The position numbers were made by a program, and so were the translations under genes. A DNA stretch of 64,000 nucleotides. It comes from Rathayibacter tritici. Lineage in GTDB: Bacteria > Actinomycetota > Actinomycetes > Actinomycetales > Microbacteriaceae. Within the stretch, counting starts at the first letter, position 1; the number at the start of each line of letters is the position of its first letter. The notes beneath the pieces were generated by a model. It did not search any database. It was not told the DNA's origin and worked only from the letters and a program-made list of their open reading frames with translations. This document shows, in pieces, positions 1 to 12,880 of this stretch. The stretch is from the NCBI RefSeq assembly GCF_002932875.1, contig NZ_PSWS01000053.1, positions 1 through 64,000 of the forward strand, read 5' to 3'.

Positions 1-96
1 TCCGCCCTCGGCTTCCGCAACCTCACCAACTACATCGCCCGCAGCCTGCTCGAAACTGGCGGCTTCAGACCCCGACTACACCCTCAATTACGATGA
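1..96 (+). pseudogene. C-terminal tail of an ISL3-type transposase (partial, cut by window edge)
   Basis: Frame 1 is open from the first base to a TGA at 94-96 and encodes 31 residues. They include FRNLTNYIARSLLETGGF, the characteristic end of ISL3-family (IS204/IS1001/IS1165) transposases from actinobacteria. Whether a full transposase lies to the left cannot be seen. No terminal inverted repeat is recognisable after the stop; instead a different open frame already runs through bases 62-96. The IS tail and the next gene remnant therefore appear fused by a deletion rather than separated by a clean IS end. Confidence 0.75.
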
Positions 97-639
97 GCCC
101 CATAAGCGTCTGATGCCTTTCTTGGTGACAGTGTTGCGAGCACTTGCGGACACACATCCTCGAGGCAGCTCCTACGGTTACGTTTCGCAGTATTCGAGTC
201 GTGAAGCACTGATGGAGCTCGTCACTGAGGATGGCCGCGACAGTATTCGATCACAGGTGCGTGGGCAGCGCGAGTTGCTCGCGACAGCTGCCTGGGATGA
301 AAAGTACCAAAGGCAGCTCATCCATTCCCGATTGGCCTTCATTTTAGGACAGATGCTTGGAGATCCTGGGGCATGGGACGTTCCGGATGGAATATTCATT
401 CCGGAAATGATCTCTCGCTTTCATGCATTCAAGGTCGTTCCTTCCTCAATATTGGCACGACGCCCTGGTTTCAGGCTTACAGAAAACTCAGTGATCTTGT
501 CTACAACTATGTGTTCTGGCTCTGTGGGGTAAGTCTTGTCGAGAGGATAGCCATACTCGAGACGACCCTGTTTGCAGCGCATGAAGACGGTTGGAGGCTG
601 GCTTCACTCATCGACGACAAGTCGGCGCCGCCTGCATGA
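62..639 (+). pseudogene. Frameshifted, 5'-truncated gene remnant, possibly the C-terminal part of a thiopeptide/LanB-type (SpaB_C-like) biosynthesis protein
   Basis: Frame 2 is open from base 62 with no start before an internal ATG at 113. It reads to about base 440 (HSRLAFILGQMLGDPGAW, then SRFHAFKVV). The protein-like signal then moves to frame 1 (TPWFQAYRKLSDLVYNYVFW, then GVSLVERIAILETTLFAAHE) and stops at 637-639. The two pieces look like one protein broken by a single-base indel near 420-470 and missing its beginning. The tail pattern YRKLxDLVYN...GVxxxER...AHE resembles the end of thiopeptide-type bacteriocin biosynthesis (lantibiotic dehydratase elimination or pyridine synthase) domains, and its position just before a LanB gene fits that. 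The family call is by eye only. Base composition is less GC-rich than in the chromosomal genes further right. Confidence 0.4.
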
Positions 640-672
640 TTCGTTGAGCTGTTCGCCCATCGTGGAGGGTCA

Positions 673-3099
673 ATGATAGAGGAATTCGAACGTATTGTGG
701 TGCTTCGATGGAACCCCGTCCCACAGCGCTCGCTCGCAAGCCCCGAATGGAAAGCCAAGCTGAGGCGACGTGAAGCGAGTTGGTCGAGATTCCGCCGCCT
801 GCGAGTCGACACCGCGTGTTTGCTAGAGGAAATGATCGGTGCGGACGCGGAGTCCACGAAGGGTGGGCGGTCGCGGGAGCTACTAAACATCGCACGGAAG
901 GTTCGACGATCCCGGATGGCGGCGTTGAACGCCTATCACCAGTATCGGACCACTGAGCGTGGGTCCGTTTTCGCGGCATGGGATGGGGTAGTCGAGGCGC
1001 TGCAGGATCTCGGGGACGATCTCGCGCGATCCGAGGCGGATGAGCTTCGTCGGGAGAGGAGTGCTCTGCGAGATGTCCTGCGGCTTGACTGCGTGCAGTT
1101 GCACGTGTCTTTGAGATCTCCCGACCTGTATGACGGCATTTCCCGTCTTCTCGAGGAGGACCCGAGAGCCGGTTGCGCCGTGATCCCCAAGGATGAACGG
1201 CATTTCCTTGATCTCGCGTATCGAGCCATGTACCGAACCAGCCCGCTGGGGCGACTGACGGCTGTCACCATCGGTCTGGCTTCTGAGCGCGGTCTGGCCG
1301 CTGAGGACGGCCCGGTCGGATCGCTTTGTAGTCCCTCGTCTTTGATCACGTCCACTCCGTTGGTGGTGAGCGCACGCGTCTATGCCGATCTGTCCGCTCG
1401 ATCCATCGACGCGTCATCGGGTGGTGACGTATCTAGCGCGCTGACTCTGAACCCGTCTCTGCGGCTGGCCGCGGAGAGAGTCGTCTTCGTGCGGAGCGTC
1501 GCCGGGGCGGCGGAGCGGGTGCCAGTCCGGGTCACACCCCTGCTGGACCACGTCGTCCAGCTCGTCCAGAATGTGAGCCTGACCCGCACCGAGCTGGCCG
1601 ACGAACTCGCTGCGAGGTTCTACGACGGAAATTCGGAGGCATCCACGGCCTTTGTCGAATCAATGATCCGAGAGCGTCTTCTGGTCACGTCGCTTCCCGG
1701 ACCGACGATCTTCGGAGAGAACCGTCTCGACACCTTTCCGGTGTCGGCGCTCGACACGTCTATCGAGGACCTCGCGACATCGGAGCCTCACAGACGACGT
1801 GTGCGCGTCGAGGGCATCAAGTCCGACCTGCGTCGTCGGCTCGCTCGCGAGGGGGTGGTCACCGAGCCGGTGCTCTACGAGGACCTCGGCGGCGTCGCTG
1901 CATTCGGGTCGGTAGAGCCTCTTCGGCGGGCGATCGCGCCGGGTCTCCGGCTGCTTGCTGCATTCGACACCAACCTCGACCTCGCGCTCATCTCGACGGA
2001 CGTGTTCCACCGGCGCTTCGGGAACTCGACGCAGAATCTCATCGATTGCGGGGTGGCGCTCAACAGGGAGACGCGCGCCTCGTATGAGCATTTCCTCCAG
2101 CGACCGTCGCTCGATGTCGCGGAGCAGTTGGGCCTGCGTCGATTCGCACAGCTCGTTCGGGCGCGAGCTGAGGTGACGGACGCAGTCGACGCCATGTGGG
2201 AGAACAAGACGCTGGACTTCGACATCCGTTCGGATCAGCTGGCAGCGTTGAACGACTCTCTGATCGAGAGCGGCACGTCGAGATCGCCTCGTGCCTACTC
2301 CGTCTTCGCGCAGGGCCAAGGCGGTGACTGGGTCGTCAATGACGCGCTCGGGGGAGGGGGTGCCCTTTGGGCCCGGTACCTGCCGAGCCCGGACGCCGGT
2401 CGCTCGGGGTCGGACCTCTGGGACTATCTCCGCAAAGAAGCCGCGTCGCGTAAGATGGAATCGGTGCAGGATACCTCGTTGCACGGGGTCTCGATCTCGA
2501 ATTCCCCGCTGATCTCTCCCCGATCGGCGCGATGGGAGGACTGGCGGGGCATCAGCGTGCACTTGGATCCCGCGTCGGGGGGGCTCCTGCGATTCAACAG
2601 CGCCTTCTCGGACAGGGATGTTCCCGACTACCTCGGCGCTGGGGCGCCATGGCTCTTGGGGCCCTTCACGGGCCTCCTTCACTGGCACCGTGCTGGTGGC
2701 CGGCTGGGCGCTTCGCGGTTGCTGCTGGATGCTTATGGGGAAAGCGCACCAGGATGCGGCAGGTTGCGGATGAACGGCATCATCTTCCACCGTCGAAGCT
2801 GGAGCGTCCCCGAACTGAGCGTCAAACTCGGCAACGCGATGACCCGCTCTTTTGTGGAGATGTTCGATTTCTGGGTCGATGAAGGGCTCCCCTTTCAGGG
2901 GTTCTTCAAGCATCGGGACGGCGGCCGGGGAGCGAAGCGCGCCAAGCCGGTGTACTTCGACGCGAGCAGTGTCGCCTCGATGGTGACGCTCGGGCGTCGC
3001 CTGGGTGAACTCGAACGATACGGACTCCTTCAGGAGGCGTTTCCGGTTCCGGTCGACGGCGAGCGCGCGATGGAAATCATGTTGAATGCGAAGGTGTAG
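673..3099 (+). CDS. Lantibiotic dehydratase, N-terminal (glutamylation) type
   Basis: An 808-residue protein with the layout of the LanB N-terminal domain (Lant_dehydr_N). The recognisable block YRTSPLGRLTAVTIGL (about residues 188-203) corresponds to the RTTPFGLFAGV-type motif of the family. LQLH/LRSPDLYDG-like segments precede it and long conserved tracts follow. The family uses glutamyl-tRNA to glutamylate Ser/Thr of a precursor peptide before elimination to dehydroalanine/dehydrobutyrine. In split systems (thiopeptides, goadsporin) the N-terminal protein is about this size and elimination is done by a separate small protein. No C-terminal elimination domain is visible here, and the only candidate partner is the broken remnant just upstream. 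ATG start with a GGAGGG ribosome site 5 bases before it. First intact gene of a four-gene plus-strand operon. Confidence 0.8.
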   Translation: MIEEFERIVVLRWNPVPQRSLASPEWKAKLRRREASWSRFRRLRVDTACLLEEMIGADAESTKGGRSRELLNIARKVRRSRMAALNAYHQYRTTERGSVFAAWDGVVEALQDLGDDLARSEADELRRERSALRDVLRLDCVQLHVSLRSPDLYDGISRLLEEDPRAGCAVIPKDERHFLDLAYRAMYRTSPLGRLTAVTIGLASERGLAAEDGPVGSLCSPSSLITSTPLVVSARVYADLSARSIDASSGGDVSSALTLNPSLRLAAERVVFVRSVAGAAERVPVRVTPLLDHVVQLVQNVSLTRTELADELAARFYDGNSEASTAFVESMIRERLLVTSLPGPTIFGENRLDTFPVSALDTSIEDLATSEPHRRRVRVEGIKSDLRRRLAREGVVTEPVLYEDLGGVAAFGSVEPLRRAIAPGLRLLAAFDTNLDLALISTDVFHRRFGNSTQNLIDCGVALNRETRASYEHFLQRPSLDVAEQLGLRRFAQLVRARAEVTDAVDAMWENKTLDFDIRSDQLAALNDSLIESGTSRSPRAYSVFAQGQGGDWVVNDALGGGGALWARYLPSPDAGRSGSDLWDYLRKEAASRKMESVQDTSLHGVSISNSPLISPRSARWEDWRGISVHLDPASGGLLRFNSAFSDRDVPDYLGAGAPWLLGPFTGLLHWHRAGGRLGASRLLLDAYGESAPGCGRLRMNGIIFHRRSWSVPELSVKLGNAMTRSFVEMFDFWVDEGLPFQGFFKHRDGGRGAKRAKPVYFDASSVASMVTLGRRLGELERYGLLQEAFPVPVDGERAMEIMLNAKV

Positions 3100-3107
3100 G
3101 AGCAATC

Positions 3108-4730
3108 GTGGAGTATGTGATGCGGCCGGGTGCGACGATGGCTTTTCTACCGGAGAAGGGGGTCTATTTCGGTTCCTCTGAGAAGGCGGTGGTCATTCCG
3201 GGTGGAAGGCCGCTCTTCGAGTACTTATCTGATCGTGAGGAGGAGCTGCGCGAGGGCCTTCCCGTCAGCGAGCTGGCCAGTCGTTTTCCCCAGATATCCG
3301 CAGGGGCCTTATCTGGTCTGATGGACCGGCTCCTCGCTGCAGGTCTCGTCCGTCAGCGAACCTTCCCGGACCGTGACCTTCGAGAAGGGCTCTCCGAGCT
3401 CATCCGCTCTGTGCCCGGGCTGATGGCTGAAATCGAAGATCTCGTCGACCGTCCTGAGTACCTGTTGTCCCGATTCGTGTCCGATGAGAGACCAGTGATC
3501 TCGGGTTCCAGGGACCTGGTTGAGGCGGTCGAGAGCGAATTCGTGCGCATGCGAGTCCGTGCCTCGCGTGACGATCATGTCACCCGGATTCGCGAGGCAG
3601 TCGATTCGTCGGGCGGACTGGGGCACGCGCTCTGCCTCGTCCTTCGTTCCACGCGCATCGTCTCGTACGTCGTGTCCGGTGCGACCGGCGCGTTCTTGTT
3701 CAGTACGGATCGAAGCTCATCGGCTGTCGGCGAGTTGGCGGTACTCAGTCGATGTGTGGGTGAACCTGTGGAGGGTGGGCCGGAGGCGCATCTTTATGAA
3801 CTACCGCTACGCAGAAGCTTACCGGGCATGACCGTGTCGAGTCACGTTCGTCAGTCGGTGCTCGACGCGGGTTTCGAGATATTCGAGTTGCGGTTCGAAC
3901 CTCCTTTTCTTCGGCGTCGTGATGGGCGTCAAGAGTTCGCCCGCACGGGCAAGCCGAAGGGCACGTCCTCGGAATCCGAGGAGTCTCGCCTTTCGCGGGA
4001 ATGGCTGAAGCCGTTCACCAGCGTCGGAATGACGATCATGCTGGTCGACCTCGACGAGGTTGACCAGCTGCCCACGTACTTCCAGGCCGCAGAGACCCGG
4101 TCGACCGCGCGGAGTCGTATTCTCGCCTGGAGCCCCAAGAGCCTAACGGATGCCTCCAAGTGCGCAGTTCTTGCCGCGTGCCGCGACTACGCGAGTTCTG
4201 TGGGCTCTCGTGGCTCGGGTCGGGGCGTCGGCGTGGCAGGAACGTCGGTCGACAGACGTTTCGTCGATGCCGCTCTGCGGCTGTCCGCGGTGGAGGAGCA
4301 TTCCCTTGTGGCGTTGAGCGAGAGCGAATTGGACTTCTCTCCCGTGTCCGCCACGCTGGTCCGTGAGTTGGAGCAGTTTCTCGAGTTCTCCGTGCATCTC
4401 GGGAAGGTGTCGGGTACAGCTGTACACGTTGCCTGTGTTCTGACGGGTGGACGTACTTTCACCACGTACGAGGCGGATCCACAACTGGCCATCGTCCACT
4501 CCCTGGTGCGGCTCAAGGCGGTGACTCAGCTGAACAGAGGTGGCGACGTCTACCGGGTCGAGGAGATCGATACGTCCTTCCTCGAGCGTCTGGATAATCG
4601 CGCCCTCGGCGAACTCGTCGCGGGTCTCAGCCGGAAACCTCTTGTCGGTGATGTGGTGGAGGTGTCGAATCGGTTCGTCGATGCGGGGCAGTGCGTCATG
4701 GGGGTCTCGTACAGGGTCGGTGCGCGTTGA
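3108..4730 (+). CDS. TOMM leader-peptide-binding/ocin-ThiF-like component (divergent)
   Basis: 540 residues, GTG start 8 bases after the LanB stop, with a GGAG site overlapping that stop. Residues ~30-85 (RPLFEYLSD, then LPVSELASRFP, then LSGLMDRLLAAGLVRQ) form a winged-helix pattern like the RiPP recognition element at the N-terminus of TOMM leader-binding (E1/ocin-ThiF-like) proteins. The remainder is poorly recognisable. I see no CxxC zinc pairs and no clear E1 nucleotide-binding loop. Position directly before a YcaO gene that begins with the typical ThiF-like 'GP...PCxxCL' piece suggests the usual C protein is divided between these two genes. Expected role: bind the precursor leader and present the core to YcaO. 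Function is inferred from context and the N-terminal fold. Confidence 0.55.
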   Translation: MEYVMRPGATMAFLPEKGVYFGSSEKAVVIPGGRPLFEYLSDREEELREGLPVSELASRFPQISAGALSGLMDRLLAAGLVRQRTFPDRDLREGLSELIRSVPGLMAEIEDLVDRPEYLLSRFVSDERPVISGSRDLVEAVESEFVRMRVRASRDDHVTRIREAVDSSGGLGHALCLVLRSTRIVSYVVSGATGAFLFSTDRSSSAVGELAVLSRCVGEPVEGGPEAHLYELPLRRSLPGMTVSSHVRQSVLDAGFEIFELRFEPPFLRRRDGRQEFARTGKPKGTSSESEESRLSREWLKPFTSVGMTIMLVDLDEVDQLPTYFQAAETRSTARSRILAWSPKSLTDASKCAVLAACRDYASSVGSRGSGRGVGVAGTSVDRRFVDAALRLSAVEEHSLVALSESELDFSPVSATLVRELEQFLEFSVHLGKVSGTAVHVACVLTGGRTFTTYEADPQLAIVHSLVRLKAVTQLNRGGDVYRVEEIDTSFLERLDNRALGELVAGLSRKPLVGDVVEVSNRFVDAGQCVMGVSYRVGAR

Positions 4731-4744
4731 GCGCGGAGACGGCA

Positions 4745-6544
4745 GTGGCGATCGTCGAGGGGGTGTCTTACCGCGATCTGCATCAGAGGGCATCACTCGC
4801 TGCTCTCCGAGCGCCAGCCGTGGTTCCCATCTACACGCGCGGTGGCGATGTCCTCGTCGGACCGGTTTACGTAGCGGGGGCGTCCGACATGCCCTGTCTG
4901 GGCTGCCTCGAGTACCAGCTCACGAACTTCGACTCGCATGCGGGCCTTGCCGTCTCTCGCGCCGCTGCGGGCGCTCGCATCGGAGCATCGCACGGTCTCG
5001 ACATCCGTGAGGCGCGCGACCTTCTCGTCGACGTCGTCTTCCGGTCTGGCGGGGACCGATCCGGTGGTCGGGCTGTCGTCGGGACACTGTCGGGCGAGTG
5101 CGTGGGCGTGGGGAATCTGACGATCTCTCCGCTCTGTCGCCTGGGCGGCCACGTCGCTACTTGTGTGGGCGTCGAAGGGCCACGAGCGGCCGGAGGCGAT
5201 GCGGATCTGCTGGTGCCCGGATTGCGCGGAGGGCGCTTCGCGTCGGCGCAGAGCAGACGAGACATGATCGCCATGTCCTGCGATTCTCTTTTCGGGCCGG
5301 TCGTCGGACCACGGAGATTTGAATCGATCTCGCCAGGAGTGTTGTCGGGTTCCGTTGTTCCTCCGGTGAAGAACGCAGGCTGGGGCCGCAAGAGGACGTC
5401 GCTGGATGCGGATTTCGTGGGGGTCCTGGAGGCTCTGGAGAGAATGTCGAGCCTCCCGTACCATGACAACGCGGTGGTGCGTCAGATCGACGGTGACGAG
5501 CGGTGCCTCGGTCCTGCTGATCTCGGGGGCTATCACGAGGACCAGTACACGCATTCGTCGAGTCGGATCAGTGCGGATGCTCCCGAGGAGTGGGTAGCGG
5601 GATGGGGGATGGACGGCGCTCGTGTCTGGGTCCCGGCGGAAGTAGGCTTCTACAGCTACTTCCCTGAGTACGGTATCGCCGACATGGCTTCTGTGTTCGA
5701 TGCGGAGCGCACTCCTCTTCGACGTTACGAGGAGTCGTCGAGTGGGAGTGCGACGGGTGCGACATACGGCGAGGCCTGTACGCACGCATTGCTGGAGGTG
5801 GTGGAACGGCATGCGTTCATGAGCTTCTGGTACTCCAGCGTCCTGTTGCCCCGTATTCCGAGTGAGGTCCTGTCGGGGTTCGCTCGCGAGGTGGAGCAGT
5901 GGATCTCGAACCGCGGGCACGAGGTGTCTCTCCTCTTGTTGTCGAGCCCGTATCCGATCATCTCGGTGGCCTGCGTTTCGTTCAACGCTCGTGGTGAGTA
6001 TCCTGCGGTGATTCTGAGCGCAGCGAGCGGTCTGGACTTCGACGCGGTGTGCGAGACAGCCCTCTGGGAAATGACGAACATGGTCGGCGGAGAACGCACT
6101 CTCTCGGAGAGCGAGGCGCGCGCCAGATTGATCTCCAAGTGGGATGTTATGGAGGCGGAGGACCACATCGCTTTCTGGGCTCTGCCGGAGCGAGCTCCCT
6201 TCATCCGCGCGAAGTGCCGTGGCAGTCTTCTGTCCGAGGGCGAGGTCGAGAAGCTTCGTGGTCGTCGTGGGGCGGGGAGCCGTCTGGATGCGTTGTCGGC
6301 GCTCAGCTACTTAATATCGGAGTTCCCCTCCCATGATCTGGGCGCGCCGGTCTTCGTCGATCAGACCAACGTGACGATCGGCGCCCTGGGAGTCAGCTGC
6401 GTGAAGTGCATCGTCCCGGGCGCGCTCGGCGTGTCCTTCGGCTTCGCTCACCAGCGCGTGGCGGAACTGCGTGTCCTCGAACGGTTGGGTAGAAGCGACC
6501 TGTTGGCTTCCACAGACGACCTCCTGCCCCATCCTTTTCCGTAA
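4745..6544 (+). CDS. YcaO-domain azoline cyclodehydratase with N-terminal ThiF-like segment
   Basis: 599 residues from GTG 4745, chosen because a GGAG lies 6 bases upstream. A TTG at 4727 overlapping the previous stop is the alternative. Residues ~15-45 contain VVPIYTRGGDVLVGPVYV and PCLGCLEYQ, the segment that ends ocin-ThiF-like proteins. The YcaO domain follows, with SSSGSATGATYGEA and ALLEVVERHAFM matching the ATP/Mg-binding S-G-x-A-x-G and E-x-x-ER motifs. The protein ends LLPHPFP, a PxPxP C-terminus; in azoline-forming YcaO proteins this tail is needed for cyclodehydration. Expected reaction: ATP-dependent cyclisation of Cys/Ser/Thr in a precursor to azolines. It forms an operon with the LanB-like and SagB-like genes. 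Confidence 0.82.
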   Translation: MAIVEGVSYRDLHQRASLAALRAPAVVPIYTRGGDVLVGPVYVAGASDMPCLGCLEYQLTNFDSHAGLAVSRAAAGARIGASHGLDIREARDLLVDVVFRSGGDRSGGRAVVGTLSGECVGVGNLTISPLCRLGGHVATCVGVEGPRAAGGDADLLVPGLRGGRFASAQSRRDMIAMSCDSLFGPVVGPRRFESISPGVLSGSVVPPVKNAGWGRKRTSLDADFVGVLEALERMSSLPYHDNAVVRQIDGDERCLGPADLGGYHEDQYTHSSSRISADAPEEWVAGWGMDGARVWVPAEVGFYSYFPEYGIADMASVFDAERTPLRRYEESSSGSATGATYGEACTHALLEVVERHAFMSFWYSSVLLPRIPSEVLSGFAREVEQWISNRGHEVSLLLLSSPYPIISVACVSFNARGEYPAVILSAASGLDFDAVCETALWEMTNMVGGERTLSESEARARLISKWDVMEAEDHIAFWALPERAPFIRAKCRGSLLSEGEVEKLRGRRGAGSRLDALSALSYLISEFPSHDLGAPVFVDQTNVTIGALGVSCVKCIVPGALGVSFGFAHQRVAELRVLERLGRSDLLASTDDLLPHPFP

Positions 6545-6572
6545 AACCCGACTTCGAAGTGGATTCGCAGTG

Positions 6573-7781
6573 ATGACTGAGGCATTCGACTATTTTACGT
6601 TATGGCAAGTCGGTCCGGGCAAGCGGCTGAGGGCGGACTACCGCGGGAACGATCTCGATGACGAGTCGGGTCGCGCGAGCGGGGCGATCGTTCGTCGTGC
6701 TGACGTCGCTTCCGCGTACGTGTTGTTCGATCAAGTATCGGTGCAGACGGATTCAGTGACGGAGGGGCCTCCGAATGTGGGGATTGCCGATCTGCTGGCG
6801 TGCGCCCTCGCCGTCATCAGAATCGAGCCGTCCAGCACCTACGCACTGCATCCGCCTTATCCCTCGGTTCGGGCGAAGATCCCGGTACGTCTGGTCGACG
6901 TGCAAGAGCGCACGTCCTTCGATCCATGGCGTTGGGTCTGGCGCAGTTGGACCGAGGCTCCGGCGGAGATCGGGCCGGTAGACCGGTCGATGTTCCGGCT
7001 CGAGATCATCCCCGAGTATCTGCCCACGTTCTACGGCGAGCTGCGCCCGATCATCTGCTGGACCGAAATCGGGCTCGTCCTGCGGGTGATGACCATCATT
7101 GCGAACAGCCTGGGATACCGCCTCACCGTGGAGTATGTGGCGTCAGAGGGAGTGCATTTTTCGGTGATGCGCGAGCATTCGGCGTATGAGAGTCCGCGAG
7201 GATCCAGCAGCGCAGACACCTCCCTCGGCATGCTCTTCCGCGAACGGCAGTCCGGGCGTTTGGGCGGGGGGCTGTTCGGCACATATCTGCGCGACCCTGT
7301 GGGTTTCGACGCGGACCCGTTCCTGTCGTGCTTCGACGCGAAGCAGGGTCTTCCGTTCGACGGCAAAGCTCATCTTGACGTGCGCACTCTGTATCTGACG
7401 CGAAGCGGGCGCTGGAAGTCGGGTGATGTTGAGATCGCTGGCGTCGACAAGGTGCTGAAGCCGCTGTCGGGTACGACGAGCCTACGCGGAGGAAATCGAC
7501 GCGCACGCGCCGAGATGCTGTTCTTCGTTACTGCCGACCTCTCGGCGGTGGTCAGCGAGGAGGGCGAGGTCGGGGTCATCAAGAGTTTCATCGGCGCCGG
7601 CTGGCACGGCTACGAGCAGTGCGCGAGCGCCACGTTGGCAGGTCGTGTCCTGCGGCCCGTCCGGGAGTTCGATGACTTCGAGGTGGCCGAGCTGCTGGAT
7701 CTGCCGCGCGCGACGCATGTCCTGCTCGCGGGATTCGGCGGCCTCGCTCGTGAGTTCGGAGCGGTTCACAACCTTGTCTGA
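6573..7781 (+). CDS. SagB-type (nitroreductase-like) azoline dehydrogenase, divergent
   Basis: 402 residues from ATG 6573; a GTG directly in front could also serve. Frames further upstream overlap the YcaO gene and are not needed. The C-terminal third (AEMLFFVTADLSAVVSEEG, then GWHGYEQCASATLAGRVLRP, then ELLDLPRATHVLLAGFGG) follows the pattern of SagB/nitroreductase-fold FMN enzymes: a strand, a helix at the dimer/FMN site, then the glycine-rich end. SagB proteins oxidise azolines to azoles. The N-terminal half is weakly conserved, as is usual for two-domain SagB proteins of actinobacteria. Last gene of the RiPP operon, 28 bases after the YcaO stop. Function rests on context plus the C-terminal pattern. 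Confidence 0.6.
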   Translation: MTEAFDYFTLWQVGPGKRLRADYRGNDLDDESGRASGAIVRRADVASAYVLFDQVSVQTDSVTEGPPNVGIADLLACALAVIRIEPSSTYALHPPYPSVRAKIPVRLVDVQERTSFDPWRWVWRSWTEAPAEIGPVDRSMFRLEIIPEYLPTFYGELRPIICWTEIGLVLRVMTIIANSLGYRLTVEYVASEGVHFSVMREHSAYESPRGSSSADTSLGMLFRERQSGRLGGGLFGTYLRDPVGFDADPFLSCFDAKQGLPFDGKAHLDVRTLYLTRSGRWKSGDVEIAGVDKVLKPLSGTTSLRGGNRRARAEMLFFVTADLSAVVSEEGEVGVIKSFIGAGWHGYEQCASATLAGRVLRPVREFDDFEVAELLDLPRATHVLLAGFGGLAREFGAVHNLV

Positions 7782-7801: not shown

Positions 7802-7951
7802 TTAGATGCGGATGCGATTGCAGCCCTCGTCATCCGGCAGCCGGAGGTTCGCCCGCGAGAAATCCGCCTCTCGCAGGATCCGGAAATCATGCTTCAGTGT
7901 GCTCGACGTCGCCTCGTAGCCGGTCATCGAGCCTGTCATCGAGCCTGTCAT
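7802..7951 (-). pseudogene. Small minus-strand reading frame, probable gene tail next to IS remnant
   Basis: 49 codons end at TAA (complement of 7802-7804). The frame reads TLKHDFRILREADFSRANL and ends CNRIRI, with G/C at most third positions. It therefore looks like a genuine coding tail rather than noise, in contrast to the opposite strand. The first 12 residues come from the tandem repeat described below (MTGSMTGSMTG), which supplies three successive ATG codons. I do not recognise a family. It may be the 3' end of a gene cut by the IS256-type element immediately upstream of it. Convergent with the SagB-like gene. Confidence 0.25.
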
Positions 7952-7962
7952 CGAGCCTGTCA
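7923..7962. repeat. 12-bp direct repeat, three tandem copies plus partial fourth
   Basis: The unit GTCATCGAGCCT occurs at 7923-7934, 7935-7946 and 7947-7958, followed by GTCA. It abuts AAGTTGTGTGTAAG, which on the minus strand reads CTTACACACAACTTGACA and resembles a terminal repeat of IS256-type elements. The repeats therefore sit exactly at the outer edge of the IS remnant. Confidence 0.85.
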
Positions 7963-7993: not shown

Positions 7994-8335
7994 TCAGAGG
8001 CAGTGGTGGACTCGTTCGGGGAATGCGATGGAGAGTTGCTCTACGGCCTTTCTCTAGTTCGTGAAAACTTGTCCTTCGACGAGGCGTCCCTCGGCTCCAT
8101 GTTCCGCGGCGGGGCGTCCTCGGTCGCGGGTTCGTTTGTCTTCGATGTCGCGGATCGCGAGCCAGAGGAGCTTGATCACGGCGTCGTCGTTGGGGAAGTT
8201 TCCGCGGTTATTCGTGACTTCGCGGAGCTGAAGGTTCAGCGACTCGATCGCGTTGGTCGTGCAGATCACTCGGTGGGCGTCGGGCAGCAACGCGAGGAAA
8301 TGGTGTGGGCCGCTCCCAGGCGCTCTCGGACGCCG
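7994..8335 (-). pseudogene. Degenerate IS256-family transposase, C-terminal remnant
   Basis: The minus strand encodes LPDAHRVICTTNAIESLNLQ, then NNRGNFPNDDAVIKLLWLAI and EGRLVEGQV, the signature end of IS256-family transposases. The frame meets TAG at 8054-8056 exactly where the family has Trp (TGG to TAG), and then continues RKAVEQLSIAFPERVHHC to TGA at 7994-7996, so this is a nonsense mutation. Upstream, SAWERPTPF (about 8303-8328) lies in another frame, indicating a frameshift near 8300. The 5' two thirds, including the catalytic DDE residues, are absent. The element is inactive. It marks the right boundary of the RiPP operon. Confidence 0.85.
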
Positions 8336-8652
8336 CTGCCGCGTTGCGGGTTCTCGCGCCCCGACTCCGACGCCGTGAACGCCTCAATCGCCGTCCTGGC
8401 TGCGTCCGCGGTCGGTGCTTACTAGACCGGCTTCAGCGCGGCGGAGACGGCCTTGTGCTCCGCGCGGTTTTGCGAGCCGGGAGTGGTCGTGCGAGCAGGA
8501 GTGGCGGGGCGCCGACGACGCCGACGGAACGGCCCAGCCGGGGACCTGATGAAGCTATGGGCGTCCGTCACGATCGGCGACCCGAGCAAGTCCGGGGAAC
8601 GAGCGTGTTGGCGTCCCTGGGAGCGGGACAGAGTGGATGAGAGACTCATTGC
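8336..8652. other. Gene-poor spacer with no supportable gene
   Basis: Several overlapping frames are open on both strands, but none has a recognisable family, a good ribosome site or consistent codon bias. The left part may contain more decayed IS256 transposase (an ARTRNAAAASES-like stretch around 8330-8370, minus strand). The remainder looks like scarred DNA between the IS remnant and the acetyltransferase. Confidence 0.4.
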
Positions 8653-9231
8653 ATGGAGCAAACGGTGCCGCTGATCCTCATCACTCGTCGCCTCGACATC
8701 ACGCGCTTCGACCACGGCGACCTGGATGACCGTCTCGCATACCAGTCGCGTGAGGACGTCGCCCGCTACCTCTACCGCGAGCCGCTGAGCCGGGACGCCT
8801 GCGCGGCGGGCATCGAGCGGGCCATCGCGACGACGGCGCTCGAGGCCGACGGCGACACTCTGGTATTCGCGGTCCGGGTGCACGGGGAGCGGCGCGTCAT
8901 CGGGGAGGTCGTCCTCACCCTGTCGGATCGTCGGGCCTCGCAGCTCGAGATCGGCTGGGTCTTCAATCCCGAGGACGCTGGCAGGGGATATGCCACCGAG
9001 GCTGCGCGGGCGATCGCCGAACTCGCGTTCTCGGAGTATGGCGCGCATCGGCTGTTCGCCCGGCTCGATGCTGAGAACGAGCGTTCGGTGCTCCTGTGTC
9101 GACGGCTGGGCTTCCGACCTGAGGCGCACCTCATCGAGAACGATCGACGCCTGTCGGGGGCGTGGGGGAGCGAGTTCGTCTATGCGGCGCTCAAAGGGGA
9201 TCTCTTCCGTGACGACACACCGCGGCGATAG
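8653..9231 (+). CDS. GNAT family N-acetyltransferase (RimJ/RimL-like)
   Basis: 192 residues, ATG start. The order is typical of the RimJ/RimL/SAT branch: N-terminal LILITRRLDITRF strand, VIGEVVLTL, then QLEIGWVFNPEDAGRGYATE, where the (R/Q)-x-x-G-x-A-like loop (GRGYAT) binds acetyl-CoA, and the C-terminal NERSVLLCRRLGFRPEAHL. Such enzymes acetylate alpha-amino groups of ribosomal proteins or small amines. Goadsporin-type clusters contain an acetyltransferase, but an IS remnant separates this gene from the RiPP operon, so a link is speculative. Confidence 0.8.
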   Translation: MEQTVPLILITRRLDITRFDHGDLDDRLAYQSREDVARYLYREPLSRDACAAGIERAIATTALEADGDTLVFAVRVHGERRVIGEVVLTLSDRRASQLEIGWVFNPEDAGRGYATEAARAIAELAFSEYGAHRLFARLDAENERSVLLCRRLGFRPEAHLIENDRRLSGAWGSEFVYAALKGDLFRDDTPRR

Positions 9232-9484
9232 TTGCGCGGCCTCAGCCACTGATGTCGCCCGAGTACGGCTGACGCCTGCGCCGATCGGGGACGCCGTCCT
9301 CGGCCGGAGGGCGTTGGGTGCGACCAGGTGTTGTGTCACGCGGGCGGGGCACCTCTGTGTCGGCCGCGAAAGCGGAGCGGATCGATGAGCGTCGCAGCGA
9401 GCGCCTCCTCGTGCGATCAGAAGCGGCCGACCGGTACCGTGGGGCGCGGCGGGACGGCCATAAGCGGACAGCACGGGGAACAGG

Positions 9485-10930
9485 ATGAGCAGTATCGACA
9501 GCGTGGACTTCACGAATTGGGATTGGCTTCCCCGTGCGGCGGAGGAGGTGGAGGGCTATGTGCAGCGGTTGCTCGCCGAGTCGAGTATTCAGCCGCATGC
9601 CGTGTCGGCGCGAGCGAAATCGATAGCGTCTTTTCAGCGGAAGCAGCGGGCGAAGAAGTACGCGGATCCGATGGGAGAGATTACCGACATCGTCGCGATC
9701 CGCATCATCACCTACTCGAATACGGATCGGGACCGGGTCGGCGAGCTGATCCGCTCCCGATTCGCGGTGCTGCCCGGGGAGGACCGGAACCCTGGAGAGG
9801 AGAAGCCGAAGCGCCTGCGCGGATACGACTGTCTGCACATCGTCGTGTCGGGAGAAGTCCACGGCCATGATTCAGACTGGGTCGTCTCCGGCGGAGAACT
9901 CGAGCGCTATTTCACGACGTTCGGAGGGCTGGAGATCCAGATCCGCACAGTGGCCGGACACGCGTGGGCCGAATTCGAGCATGCACGACGATACAAAGGC
10001 GCGCAGTACGAGGCGGTCGGCGAGCAGGACAGAGTCACGATTGACCAGCTCTTCGGAGCGGCATCCGACGCTCGTCGTGCGCTCGATGAGACGTTTGTGG
10101 CGATCGACCGGATTCTCGCGCGGCCGTCGTTCGACGAGGAAAGCCGGCGCGACCAGGTCCGTGTCGAGCGGGAGGCCGGTCCGGGGGACACCACCGCGTC
10201 GACTCCTCTGGACGTCCGGGCGCTCTGCGAGTTCCTGGAGTCGAGGTTCCCCGACGACACGGACGGCAGCGCGAAGGGGATCGAATTCGGAATCGAGCTT
10301 GCACGATGCTGCGGGATCGACACGGTCGACCAGCTGGAATCGGCCTTGGAGGACGTCGACAGCGAGCAGGTGCGGGCGCTGATGGAATCGGGTGGTCCGG
10401 TCACTCGGGTCCGGCGTCTCGACGACGAGCTGCTCGCGCGCTTCGGGCAGGACTACATCGAGAAAACCACGAACACGGGGACCGCTCGCCATCGCGGCCG
10501 GCAGCTCGAATGGCGTTACGACCGGTTGCGAGGAAAAACACGGTATCGGAGCTATCTCCTGCTGAGCCGTTCAGCTCGGACGGAGTTCGACGCCGGGCCG
10601 TACACGGCAATCGGTGCTCTGCGGGAAGTCGCGCGAATCATCGCGAGCAAATGCGGGAGGGAGGCCGTCGCTCTTCCGGGAGTCGTCTCCTTAGAACCCG
10701 ATCTGCCCCCGAGGACGAGGGCCAAGAGGGTCTCGGTCGACGACGACTCGGACGTCTGGGTGATCTCGAATCTCGGTCGCGAGGCGGTGGAGGGCGTCAT
10801 GGCGGACCTGCTCTCCCGGGTCTGCCCCTTCGACCTCCGGGTTGTGCGCGGCGATGTCGTGGTCGCCGACGGCCGGAGCGATCGCCCCGAGCGCGCGGCG
10901 GACGACACCGAGCGCGATCTGCGCCGGTGA
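9485..10930 (+). CDS. RelA/SpoT-domain (pyro)phosphotransferase with long C-terminal extension
   Basis: 481 residues, ATG with GGGGAACAGG just upstream. Residues ~35-175 carry the RelA/SpoT synthetase pattern: SARAKSIASFQRKQ (R-x-K-S), ITDIVAIRII (D...A-x-R), GYDCLHIVV in place of the usual GYRSLH, and EIQIRTVAGHAWAEFEHARR, then YKG. There is no HD hydrolase domain, no TGS and no ACT. The remaining ~300 residues match nothing I know; they include an acidic helical stretch (~240-320) and a compact ending (VWVISNLGREAVEGVMADLL). It may make (p)ppGpp, or belong to the toxSAS group that pyrophosphorylates tRNA or makes (pp)pApp. The Arg-to-Asp change in the GYxxLH motif is noteworthy. It sits at the edge of accessory DNA as an apparently single gene. 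Confidence 0.75.
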   Translation: MSSIDSVDFTNWDWLPRAAEEVEGYVQRLLAESSIQPHAVSARAKSIASFQRKQRAKKYADPMGEITDIVAIRIITYSNTDRDRVGELIRSRFAVLPGEDRNPGEEKPKRLRGYDCLHIVVSGEVHGHDSDWVVSGGELERYFTTFGGLEIQIRTVAGHAWAEFEHARRYKGAQYEAVGEQDRVTIDQLFGAASDARRALDETFVAIDRILARPSFDEESRRDQVRVEREAGPGDTTASTPLDVRALCEFLESRFPDDTDGSAKGIEFGIELARCCGIDTVDQLESALEDVDSEQVRALMESGGPVTRVRRLDDELLARFGQDYIEKTTNTGTARHRGRQLEWRYDRLRGKTRYRSYLLLSRSARTEFDAGPYTAIGALREVARIIASKCGREAVALPGVVSLEPDLPPRTRAKRVSVDDDSDVWVISNLGREAVEGVMADLLSRVCPFDLRVVRGDVVVADGRSDRPERAADDTERDLRR

Positions 10931-11681: not shown

Positions 11682-11780
11682 GCACGTTCGCCCTCGAGGT
11701 CGAGAGCGCCGAGCGGGTGGCGACGGCCCCGTTCGGCGGGTCGATCGCAGCGCTGGTTCGCTGCCTTCAAGGGATGACGT

Positions 11781-11854
11781 CTGCACAACGAAGGTTGGGG
11801 CGCTCGAACGGGCGCCAGAGGGCCGCTGGTTGGCTTCCAGCCTTCGTTGTGCAG
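11781..11854. repeat. Dispersed palindromic element, copy A
   Basis: Arms CTGCACAACGAAGG (11781-11794) and CCTTCGTTGTGCAG (11841-11854) are perfect 14-bp reverse complements around a GC-rich 46-base centre. The same arm recurs at 30969-31039 and 32030-32097. This copy lies between the SDR gene and ppk2. It can fold into a hairpin and may act as a terminator or be a non-autonomous REP/MITE-like element. Confidence 0.8.
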
Positions 11855-11920
11855 GCGCGGGCCCGCCGCCGGTCACCGCGCGTTCACCGGCGCGTCGCCC
11901 GGGCGCACTACGGTCCCTTC

Positions 11921-12880
11921 GTGCCCGACGACGCCCCCGAGACTGCCCACGACGCCCTCCGTCCCACTGCCGAGCTGCTCCGCTCGCTCGCACCCGACGA
12001 CGCGCGGGACCTCGTCGTGCTCGACGAGGACGACGACGACCCGGTGCTGCTGCGCCGGGACGGCACGCAGATCGACACCTGGCGCGAGGGCTACCCGTAC
12101 GACGAGCGGATATCGCGTGAGGAGTACGAGGCGGGCAAGCGGCTCCTCCAGATCGAGCTGCTGAAGCTGCAGAACTGGATCAAGAAGCACGGTCGGCGGC
12201 TCGTGGTCGTGTTCGAGGGGCGCGACGCGGCGGGCAAGGGCGGCACGATCAAGCGCTTCACCGAGCACCTCAACCCGCGCGGAGCCCGCGTCGTCGCGCT
12301 CGAGAAGCCGACCGAGCGCGAAGCCGGACAGTGGTACTTCCAGCGCTACGTCTCGCACCTGCCGGCCGCCGGTGAGATCGTCCTGTTCGACCGCTCCTGG
12401 TACAACCGGGCCGGCGTGGAGCGGGTGATGGGCTTCTGCACGCCCGCGCAGTACGACGAGTTCATCCGTCAGACGCCGCTGTTCGAGCGGATGCTGGTGG
12501 GCGAGGGCATCGATCTGGTGAAGCTGTGGTTCTCGGTGTCGGCGGAGGAGCAGCGCACGCGGTTCACGATGCGGATGATCGACCCCGTGCGGCAGTGGAA
12601 GCTCTCGCCGATGGATTTCGCCTCGCTCGACAAGTGGGGCGACTACACGGCGGCGAAGGAGGCGATGATGGCGGCGACCGACACCGACGATGCTCCGTGG
12701 ACCATCGTGAAGAGCAACGACAAGAAGCGCGCGCGGCTCGAGGCCATGCGCTACGTGCTGAGCCTCTACGACTATGACGGACGGGACGAGGAGGTCGTCG
12801 GGCCGCGGGGTCCGGACCCCCTGATCGTCGGGTCGGCCGCCGACGTCTACGAGCGCGGCGAGCACGCCGCGACGAGCTGA
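11921..12880 (+). CDS. ppk2: Polyphosphate kinase 2 family protein
   Basis: 319 residues from GTG 11921. A TACGGT box sits 6 bases before it (leaderless pattern), and the upstream in-frame extension runs through the palindromic repeat, so it is rejected. Walker A GRDAAGKGG (~101-109), Walker B FDRSWYNRAG (~156) and a lid region rich in Arg (EEQRTRFTMRM) match class I PPK2 enzymes, which transfer phosphate between polyphosphate and nucleotides. The acidic N-terminus (LDEDDDDPVLLRRDG) is common in actinobacterial members. Length is normal. The phosphopantetheinyl transferase gene starts 14 bases downstream, so the two are probably co-transcribed. Confidence 0.92.
   Translation: MPDDAPETAHDALRPTAELLRSLAPDDARDLVVLDEDDDDPVLLRRDGTQIDTWREGYPYDERISREEYEAGKRLLQIELLKLQNWIKKHGRRLVVVFEGRDAAGKGGTIKRFTEHLNPRGARVVALEKPTEREAGQWYFQRYVSHLPAAGEIVLFDRSWYNRAGVERVMGFCTPAQYDEFIRQTPLFERMLVGEGIDLVKLWFSVSAEEQRTRFTMRMIDPVRQWKLSPMDFASLDKWGDYTAAKEAMMAATDTDDAPWTIVKSNDKKRARLEAMRYVLSLYDYDGRDEEVVGPRGPDPLIVGSAADVYERGEHAATS

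Follow-up and report, generated by a model that had tools for sequence, protein, structure and literature searches.

The enzymatic steps that build thiopeptides and related azole-containing peptides are described in sections of work on lactazole and goadsporin (PMC7210931, PMC5303826): a leader-binding (RRE) protein and a YcaO enzyme form azolines, a flavin mononucleotide (FMN)-dependent dehydrogenase oxidises them, and a LanB-type protein glutamylates by way of Glu-tRNA, after which an elimination domain generates dehydroalanine; ring closure, with release of the leader, falls to a pyridine synthase. Here we analyse a locus with genes of these families near the start of a 64,000-nucleotide stretch of Rathayibacter tritici DNA (contig NZ_PSWS01000053.1, positions 1 to 64,000; hereafter the window). 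From its sequence, the locus is very probably a thiopeptide gene cluster reduced to its middle part, without both ends, an inactive remnant as it stands, and was probably gained by horizontal transfer.

Enzyme families are shared between the window and Ser-rich Streptomyces thiopeptide clusters such as that of Streptomyces venezuelae NRRL B-65442, whose core SSGSIGTSSSSSSTCSAC is printed in a table of PMC9769785 and again in PMC11256431, in a portion of text that speaks of a cryptic thiopeptide. Compared with these clusters, the window is without precursor and elimination gene, is missing the pyridine synthase's first half, and has a dehydrogenase about 80-150 amino acids shorter than most. 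The lactazole cluster (lazA-F), in the sections of PMC7210931 that deal with its enzymes, has LanB, RRE protein, YcaO and dehydrogenase activities as in the window families, but unites elimination and dehydrogenase in one protein, LazF, whereas the dehydrogenase of the window stands alone. Judged by gene order, the Streptomyces plasmid clusters L003, L006 and L007 look lactazole-like; in them a LanB-C-type gene follows LanB, whereas in the window a pyridine synthase remnant precedes it. Staphylococcus thiopeptide plasmids (L002), which we take to be of the micrococcin type, carry an annotated precursor of the thiocillin/thiostrepton family and a YcaO of the same family (E 1e-12), but its identity to the window YcaO is only 21.6%, and gene order and host differ. 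The goadsporin cluster holds YcaO, dehydrogenase and split LanB, as does the window (parts of PMC5303826), and is described without a pyridine synthase in a passage of PMC4603692 that compares it with coryneazolisins, whereas the window has a pyridine synthase remnant at 98-639.

Results

Relatives of the locus and their gene order

For comparison, genome contigs were scanned with an alignment-based YcaO query, a single-sequence YcaO query having found no relative in them. The best 80 of at least 532 confirmed loci were kept, and the 42 whose YcaO reached E 5e-32 or lower, of which Streptomycetaceae supplied 41 and Phycicoccus one, are the sample referred to below as the relatives. A YcaO tree with 109 rows places the window and the 42 relatives together as a set of 43, supported at 98% in the SH-like approximate likelihood ratio test (SH-aLRT); the window branch is long (1.69), and this quick tree supports membership of the set and no position inside it. 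Identity of the window YcaO was at most 35-36% among the matches listed. Another long-branch YcaO of the set (1.17) belongs to L051 (Streptomyces sp. NBC_01214, 3885-13887), the dehydrogenase of which is the best tblastn match to that of the window among the 42 group loci (2e-7); no precursor was found there with the filters described below.

The usual order in the relatives is precursor, pyridine synthase, LanB, RRE, YcaO, dehydrogenase and elimination protein. At E 1e-6, a pyridine synthase was found in 37 of the 42, LanB in 40, RRE, YcaO and dehydrogenase in all 42 and an elimination protein in 38; by membership of the profile sets, the counts were 36, 40, 40, 42, 39 and 38, respectively. 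In 29 of the 37 loci holding both, at most 600 bases separate the pyridine synthase gene from a downstream LanB; the exceptions are L015, L017, L018, L041, L047, L048, L050 and L051, in the last of which the pyridine synthase sits behind LanB. Within the same distance, LanB is followed by RRE in 36/40 loci, RRE by YcaO in 41/42 and YcaO by the dehydrogenase in 40/42, and the elimination gene stands directly behind the dehydrogenase in all 38 loci with both. Of the 31 loci with both a precursor-like ORF and a pyridine synthase, 25 have the former no more than 2 kb upstream of the latter; the exceptions are L013, L025, L028, L036, L037 and L052.

Public family models were compared with representatives of these proteins. 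Two relatives' pyridine synthases matched NF045556 (7.1e-36 and 5.7e-34, both below its 325-bit cut-off), a model that the relatives' elimination proteins also match weakly. Above cut-off, two relatives' elimination proteins matched PF14028 and TIGR03891 and two relatives' precursors matched NF033400; against Pfam Nitroreductase, the relatives' dehydrogenases gave matches below cut-off only. A plasmid collection yielded YcaO matches in 18 records, in Streptomyces, Actinomyces, Paenibacillus and Staphylococcus. The surroundings of nine plasmid YcaO loci were compared, seven of which had annotation over the stretch: a thiopeptide-type precursor is annotated near YcaO in L002, L003, L006, L007 and L008, a thiopeptide pyridine synthase in L012, and a thiopeptide-type biosynthesis protein, without an annotated precursor, in L011. 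With the window LanB as query, the plasmid collection gave no match at E 1e-3 and two of five whole genomes matched at that threshold, while tblastn located LanB in three of the four group loci that those genomes have besides the unmatched L092; LanB alone is a weak probe.

Four middle genes of a probable thiopeptide cluster

Profiles for six protein families were built from the 42 relatives, with the window left out, and searched against all 926 open reading frames (ORFs) of the window. Those for LanB, RRE, YcaO, dehydrogenase and pyridine synthase matched one ORF each, the first four where the gene order of the relatives would put it. The RRE and elimination profiles were trimmed N-terminally, which changed the RRE result from 9.8e-21 to 5.4e-20; reversed window ORFs gave no profile match at E up to 10, and shuffled ORFs (five per ORF) none with the trimmed RRE or elimination profiles.

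The LanB, RRE, YcaO and dehydrogenase genes are co-directional on the plus strand at 673-7781, between two transposase remnants. The LanB-type glutamylation protein (673-3099) is of full length, with 808 amino acids; it matches its family profile at 7.5e-55 over positions 7-824 of 840, and PF04738 at 1.1e-6, just below cut-off in the Pfam scan (27.6 of 28 bits). Next comes the leader-binding, PbtF/TbtF-like partner protein (3108-4730, 540 amino acids), the single ORF matched by the RRE profile and at the expected place; the E value is 3.7e-20 for the protein itself. Its predicted fold has the RRE of PbtF (8t19_A) as top match, at a weak E of 2.9e-3. YcaO structures, too, are among the weak matches of the same model (m4e6375fd86ff; 6ci7, E 5e-3 and above). 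The YcaO cyclodehydratase (4727-6544) starts either at TTG 4727, in which case it overlaps the preceding gene's stop codon, or at GTG 4745. It matches PF02624 at 1.6e-42 and the family profile at 1.2e-85 (positions 23-630 of 630), ends in PHPFP and keeps the key residues E232, E235, R236, S335, E346, E354, E357 and R358. The last gene (6573-7781) encodes 402 amino acids with the match (3.5e-21) and predicted nitroreductase fold of an FMN-type azoline dehydrogenase.

Pfam and NCBIfam scans gave no name to the RRE protein, the dehydrogenase or the fragment at 98-639, and sequence searches of the PDB returned weak YcaO matches only (TruD, LynD, MusD), none for LanB and nothing above chance level for the other two proteins. 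By family, the four proteins fit the roles of RRE, YcaO, dehydrogenase and LanB; predicted folds agree for the dehydrogenase and, at a weak level, for the RRE protein. The profiles thus bear out the set named in a preliminary description made from the letters of the window (LanB-type, leader-binding-like, YcaO and SagB-like dehydrogenase), and the products of 673-3099 and 4745-6544 do fall inside the LanB and YcaO families to which it assigned them. Features of thiopeptide clusters matched here are the split LanB, the YcaO with RRE partner and the azoline dehydrogenase, the last of which is usual but not universal in such clusters.

A broken pyridine synthase at the left end

Directly upstream of LanB, the broken ORF at 98-639 is, by its profile matches, what remains of a thiopeptide pyridine ([4+2]) synthase: its 3' half, severed at the end of an insertion sequence (IS) and lying in two frames of the plus strand. 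The first piece (98-415) matches at about 104-289, corresponding to profile positions 163-226 of 368; the ORF at 2-529 scores 23.3 bits (E 1.7e-6), and 22.2 bits when taken from position 98 (98-529), as against 11.9 bits for the best of 2000 shuffles. The second piece (436-639), in a different frame, matches at about 457-546 (profile positions 309-337) with 9.8 bits, the best of 2000 shuffles reaching 4.8. The frame switch falls somewhere in 289-457, and inspection by eye puts it at about 415-436.

Positions 1-100 are the 3' end of an ISL3-family insertion sequence on the plus strand, consisting of the transposase C-terminus and terminal repeat. Eight plasmid records match this DNA; seven of the matches stop at 99-100 and one at 66, and three of the eight records have an annotated ISL3 transposase there. 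A Curtobacterium locus (L001) has the same ISL3 right end, with the left terminal repeat (17/24 bases) about 1.39 kb upstream. Position 1 of the window falls inside the element, and the ISL3 end at about 100 occupies the place of the first half of the pyridine synthase, the match to which starts at about profile position 163. No intact pyridine synthase was found in the window, only this truncated remnant.

The right end and missing parts

Relatives carry the elimination gene immediately after the dehydrogenase; in that place the window shows what looks like the minus-strand tail of another gene, and an IS256 remnant. The former, tentatively assigned, comprises 40 amino acids (7805-7924; sub-threshold PF00805, E 0.064). 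The latter (8054-8455, minus strand) is the C-terminal part of an IS256/Mutator transposase, with a PF00872 match of 8.8e-10 for 8054-8290 and a 76% DNA match to plasmid CP000541 at 8121-8455. The IS remnants noticed earlier at both flanks are thus real. The trimmed elimination (TbtC-like) profile matched 0 of the 926 window ORFs. Given the losses at the pyridine synthase end and behind the dehydrogenase, the parts expected at both cluster ends are missing.

Precursors were sought with two filters designed for thiopeptide-type precursors. The first, stricter filter found a precursor-like ORF in 15 of the 42 relatives and the looser one in 33; the nine loci without one (L022, L024, L026, L027, L031, L046, L050, L051 and L059), some of which are short contigs, were kept in the counts. 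Core types in the relatives are CC-Ser7-CC, CC-Ser5-TCCC, TSSSSSTCSSSTC and SSGSIGTSSSSSSTCSAC. An ORF ending in SSGSIGTSSSSSSTCSAC occurs in ten relatives (L014, L019, L020, L021, L023, L035, L038, L039, L040 and L044), and a literature search on six core motifs found one of them, in two papers. Some relatives (L016, L017, L028 and L047) have two precursor-like ORFs side by side. In the window, the leader-motif filter found no such ORF, and the looser filter returned three Cys/Ser/Thr-rich ORF tails without the leader motif, none convincing as a precursor; nor was a goadsporin-type precursor found, with filters that were made for the thiopeptide type. The view that no intact elimination protein, pyridine synthase or precursor is in sight therefore holds for the window.

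State of the four genes

The YcaO departs from its relatives at two near-invariant sites: C131S (Cys in 40/42 relatives) removes one of four CxxC cysteines, and D359H (Asp in 42/42) changes ERDAF to ERHAF. The dehydrogenase has 402 amino acids, as against a matched stretch of 480-549 in 38 listed relatives bar one, the short contig L026 with 315. Near-invariant columns are departed from at 40 of 100 positions in LanB, 41 of 110 in YcaO and 16 of 42 in the dehydrogenase; the RRE figure (16 of 36) is unsafe, as it comes from the alignment before trimming. These counts lie close to or above the level of the relatives that have diverged most, a group with some truncated or badly cut members, and do not separate decay from divergence. 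With the window among the set's most strongly diverged members, the state of the four genes would fit either relaxed constraint or old divergence.

Origin and neighbouring genes

Guanine-plus-cytosine (GC) content of the operon is 63%, and 61-65% per kb over 1-8 kb. Beyond 11 kb it is 65-76% per kb, with 33 of 53 blocks reaching 70% and one block at 64.9%; GC alone is weak evidence for transfer, one distant block being as low. The YcaO was also sought in 395 genomes drawn from the presumed host family (in the order of Phycicoccus and probably Microbacteriaceae), presumed from the PPK2 at 11717-12880, for which identity to genomes of that family does not exceed 76%. With three candidates scored per genome, no YcaO of the window type was found in the 395 and eight had other YcaOs (best E 5e-19), while the same query recovered it at 2.2e-43 or better in 4/4 control genomes that are known to have it. 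Together, the GC contrast and the family survey with its controls point to horizontal acquisition.

Right after the IS256 remnant lie genes for a GNAT acetyltransferase (8653-9231) and a 481-amino-acid RelA/SpoT-domain protein (together 8653-10930), with a GC content of 65-67%; they may be part of the same acquired island. Between the dehydrogenase and the IS256 remnant, a 12-base unit, TCATCGAGCCTG, is repeated in tandem in three copies (7918-7962).

Discussion

A thiopeptide cluster remnant is the most likely reading of the locus, ahead of a goadsporin-like tailoring module, because the broken pyridine synthase adjoins LanB, as in most relatives, and because the nearest YcaOs among the matches listed sit in clusters with thiopeptide-type precursors. 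Judging from the protein families and from the lactazole and goadsporin work, the RRE protein of the complete cluster would have held the precursor leader while YcaO converted Cys, Ser and Thr to azolines, which the dehydrogenase would have oxidised to azoles. LanB would have glutamylated Ser and Thr using Glu-tRNA, and dehydroalanines would have arisen as a separate elimination protein took the glutamate off again; two of these the pyridine synthase would have joined into the central ring, freeing the leader. With no convincing precursor, no elimination protein and no intact pyridine synthase found in the window, no thiopeptide would be expected, and probably no product at all from the locus as it stands. 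We therefore file it, on its gene content, as a remnant rather than a working member of thiopeptide biosynthetic gene clusters, since an intact pyridine ([4+2]) synthase is missing.

The preliminary description had left a choice between goadsporin-like and thiopeptide enzymes, and between a decaying island and a tailoring module. That the cluster was goadsporin-like and never had a pyridine synthase is extremely improbable. Such a cluster would be expected to have a leader-cleaving transporter, an N-acetyltransferase and a precursor of the goadsporin type. The goadsporin cluster does hold the same kinds of enzyme, YcaO, dehydrogenase and split LanB, according to parts of PMC5303826 and PMC4603692, and a GNAT acetyltransferase gene lies nearby; this gene, however, sits beyond the IS256 remnant, the leader-binding protein is separate and has PbtF as its top, if weak, fold match, and a pyridine synthase remnant stands beside LanB, so that of the two enzyme combinations the thiopeptide one is favoured over the goadsporin-like one. 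A working tailoring module, with precursor and elimination protein elsewhere and the four enzymes still making a linear azole/dehydroalanine peptide, appears very unlikely, and no finding here speaks directly for it. The four reading frames are uninterrupted and keep many conserved residues, and the elimination domain of another pathway, LazF, served goadsporin enzymes in vitro, as reported in a section of PMC5303826. Yet the pyridine synthase at the same locus is broken, nothing found in the window fills the precursor and elimination gaps, and relatives keep the elimination gene directly behind the dehydrogenase (38/38) and mostly have a precursor-like ORF (33/42); the broken synthase and the IS ends favour the decaying island. 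Unlikely, if conceivable, is a split cluster, in which an ISL3 copy inserted in the pyridine synthase gene and the rest is intact beyond it, leaving the pathway mostly present but interrupted. The break does sit at an IS end and the window begins inside the IS, but the opposite end is likewise without its elimination gene, and what is left of the pyridine synthase is divided between two frames.

Several points weigh against reading the locus as an inactive, transferred remnant. The four ORFs are open and the YcaO key residues are kept, which recent loss or continued use would fit equally, and the short dehydrogenase and the YcaO site changes may reflect divergence, not decay. A single sequence underlies the frame change, and the stretch left of the IS could still contain the opening half of the pyridine synthase along with a precursor. 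As for acquisition, the family survey scored only three candidates per genome. Inactivity is what we infer; sequence left of the ISL3 element and the rest of the genome could carry the missing parts.

It is hardly probable that the four genes persist by acting on a precursor encoded elsewhere, with elimination by another protein. Were this true, though we consider it very doubtful, a thiopeptide machine would have lost its pyridine synthase and turned into a maker of linear azole/dehydroalanine peptides in a lineage distant from Streptomyces. On the preferred reading of a thiopeptide cluster remnant, the direct importance of the locus is small beyond two points. A RiPP (ribosomally synthesised and post-translationally modified peptide) cluster without a precursor can still be read, in that position and profile comparison with complete relatives restore its missing parts and its class; and the locus would be a deeply diverged, broken addition to the set of Ser-rich thiopeptide clusters.

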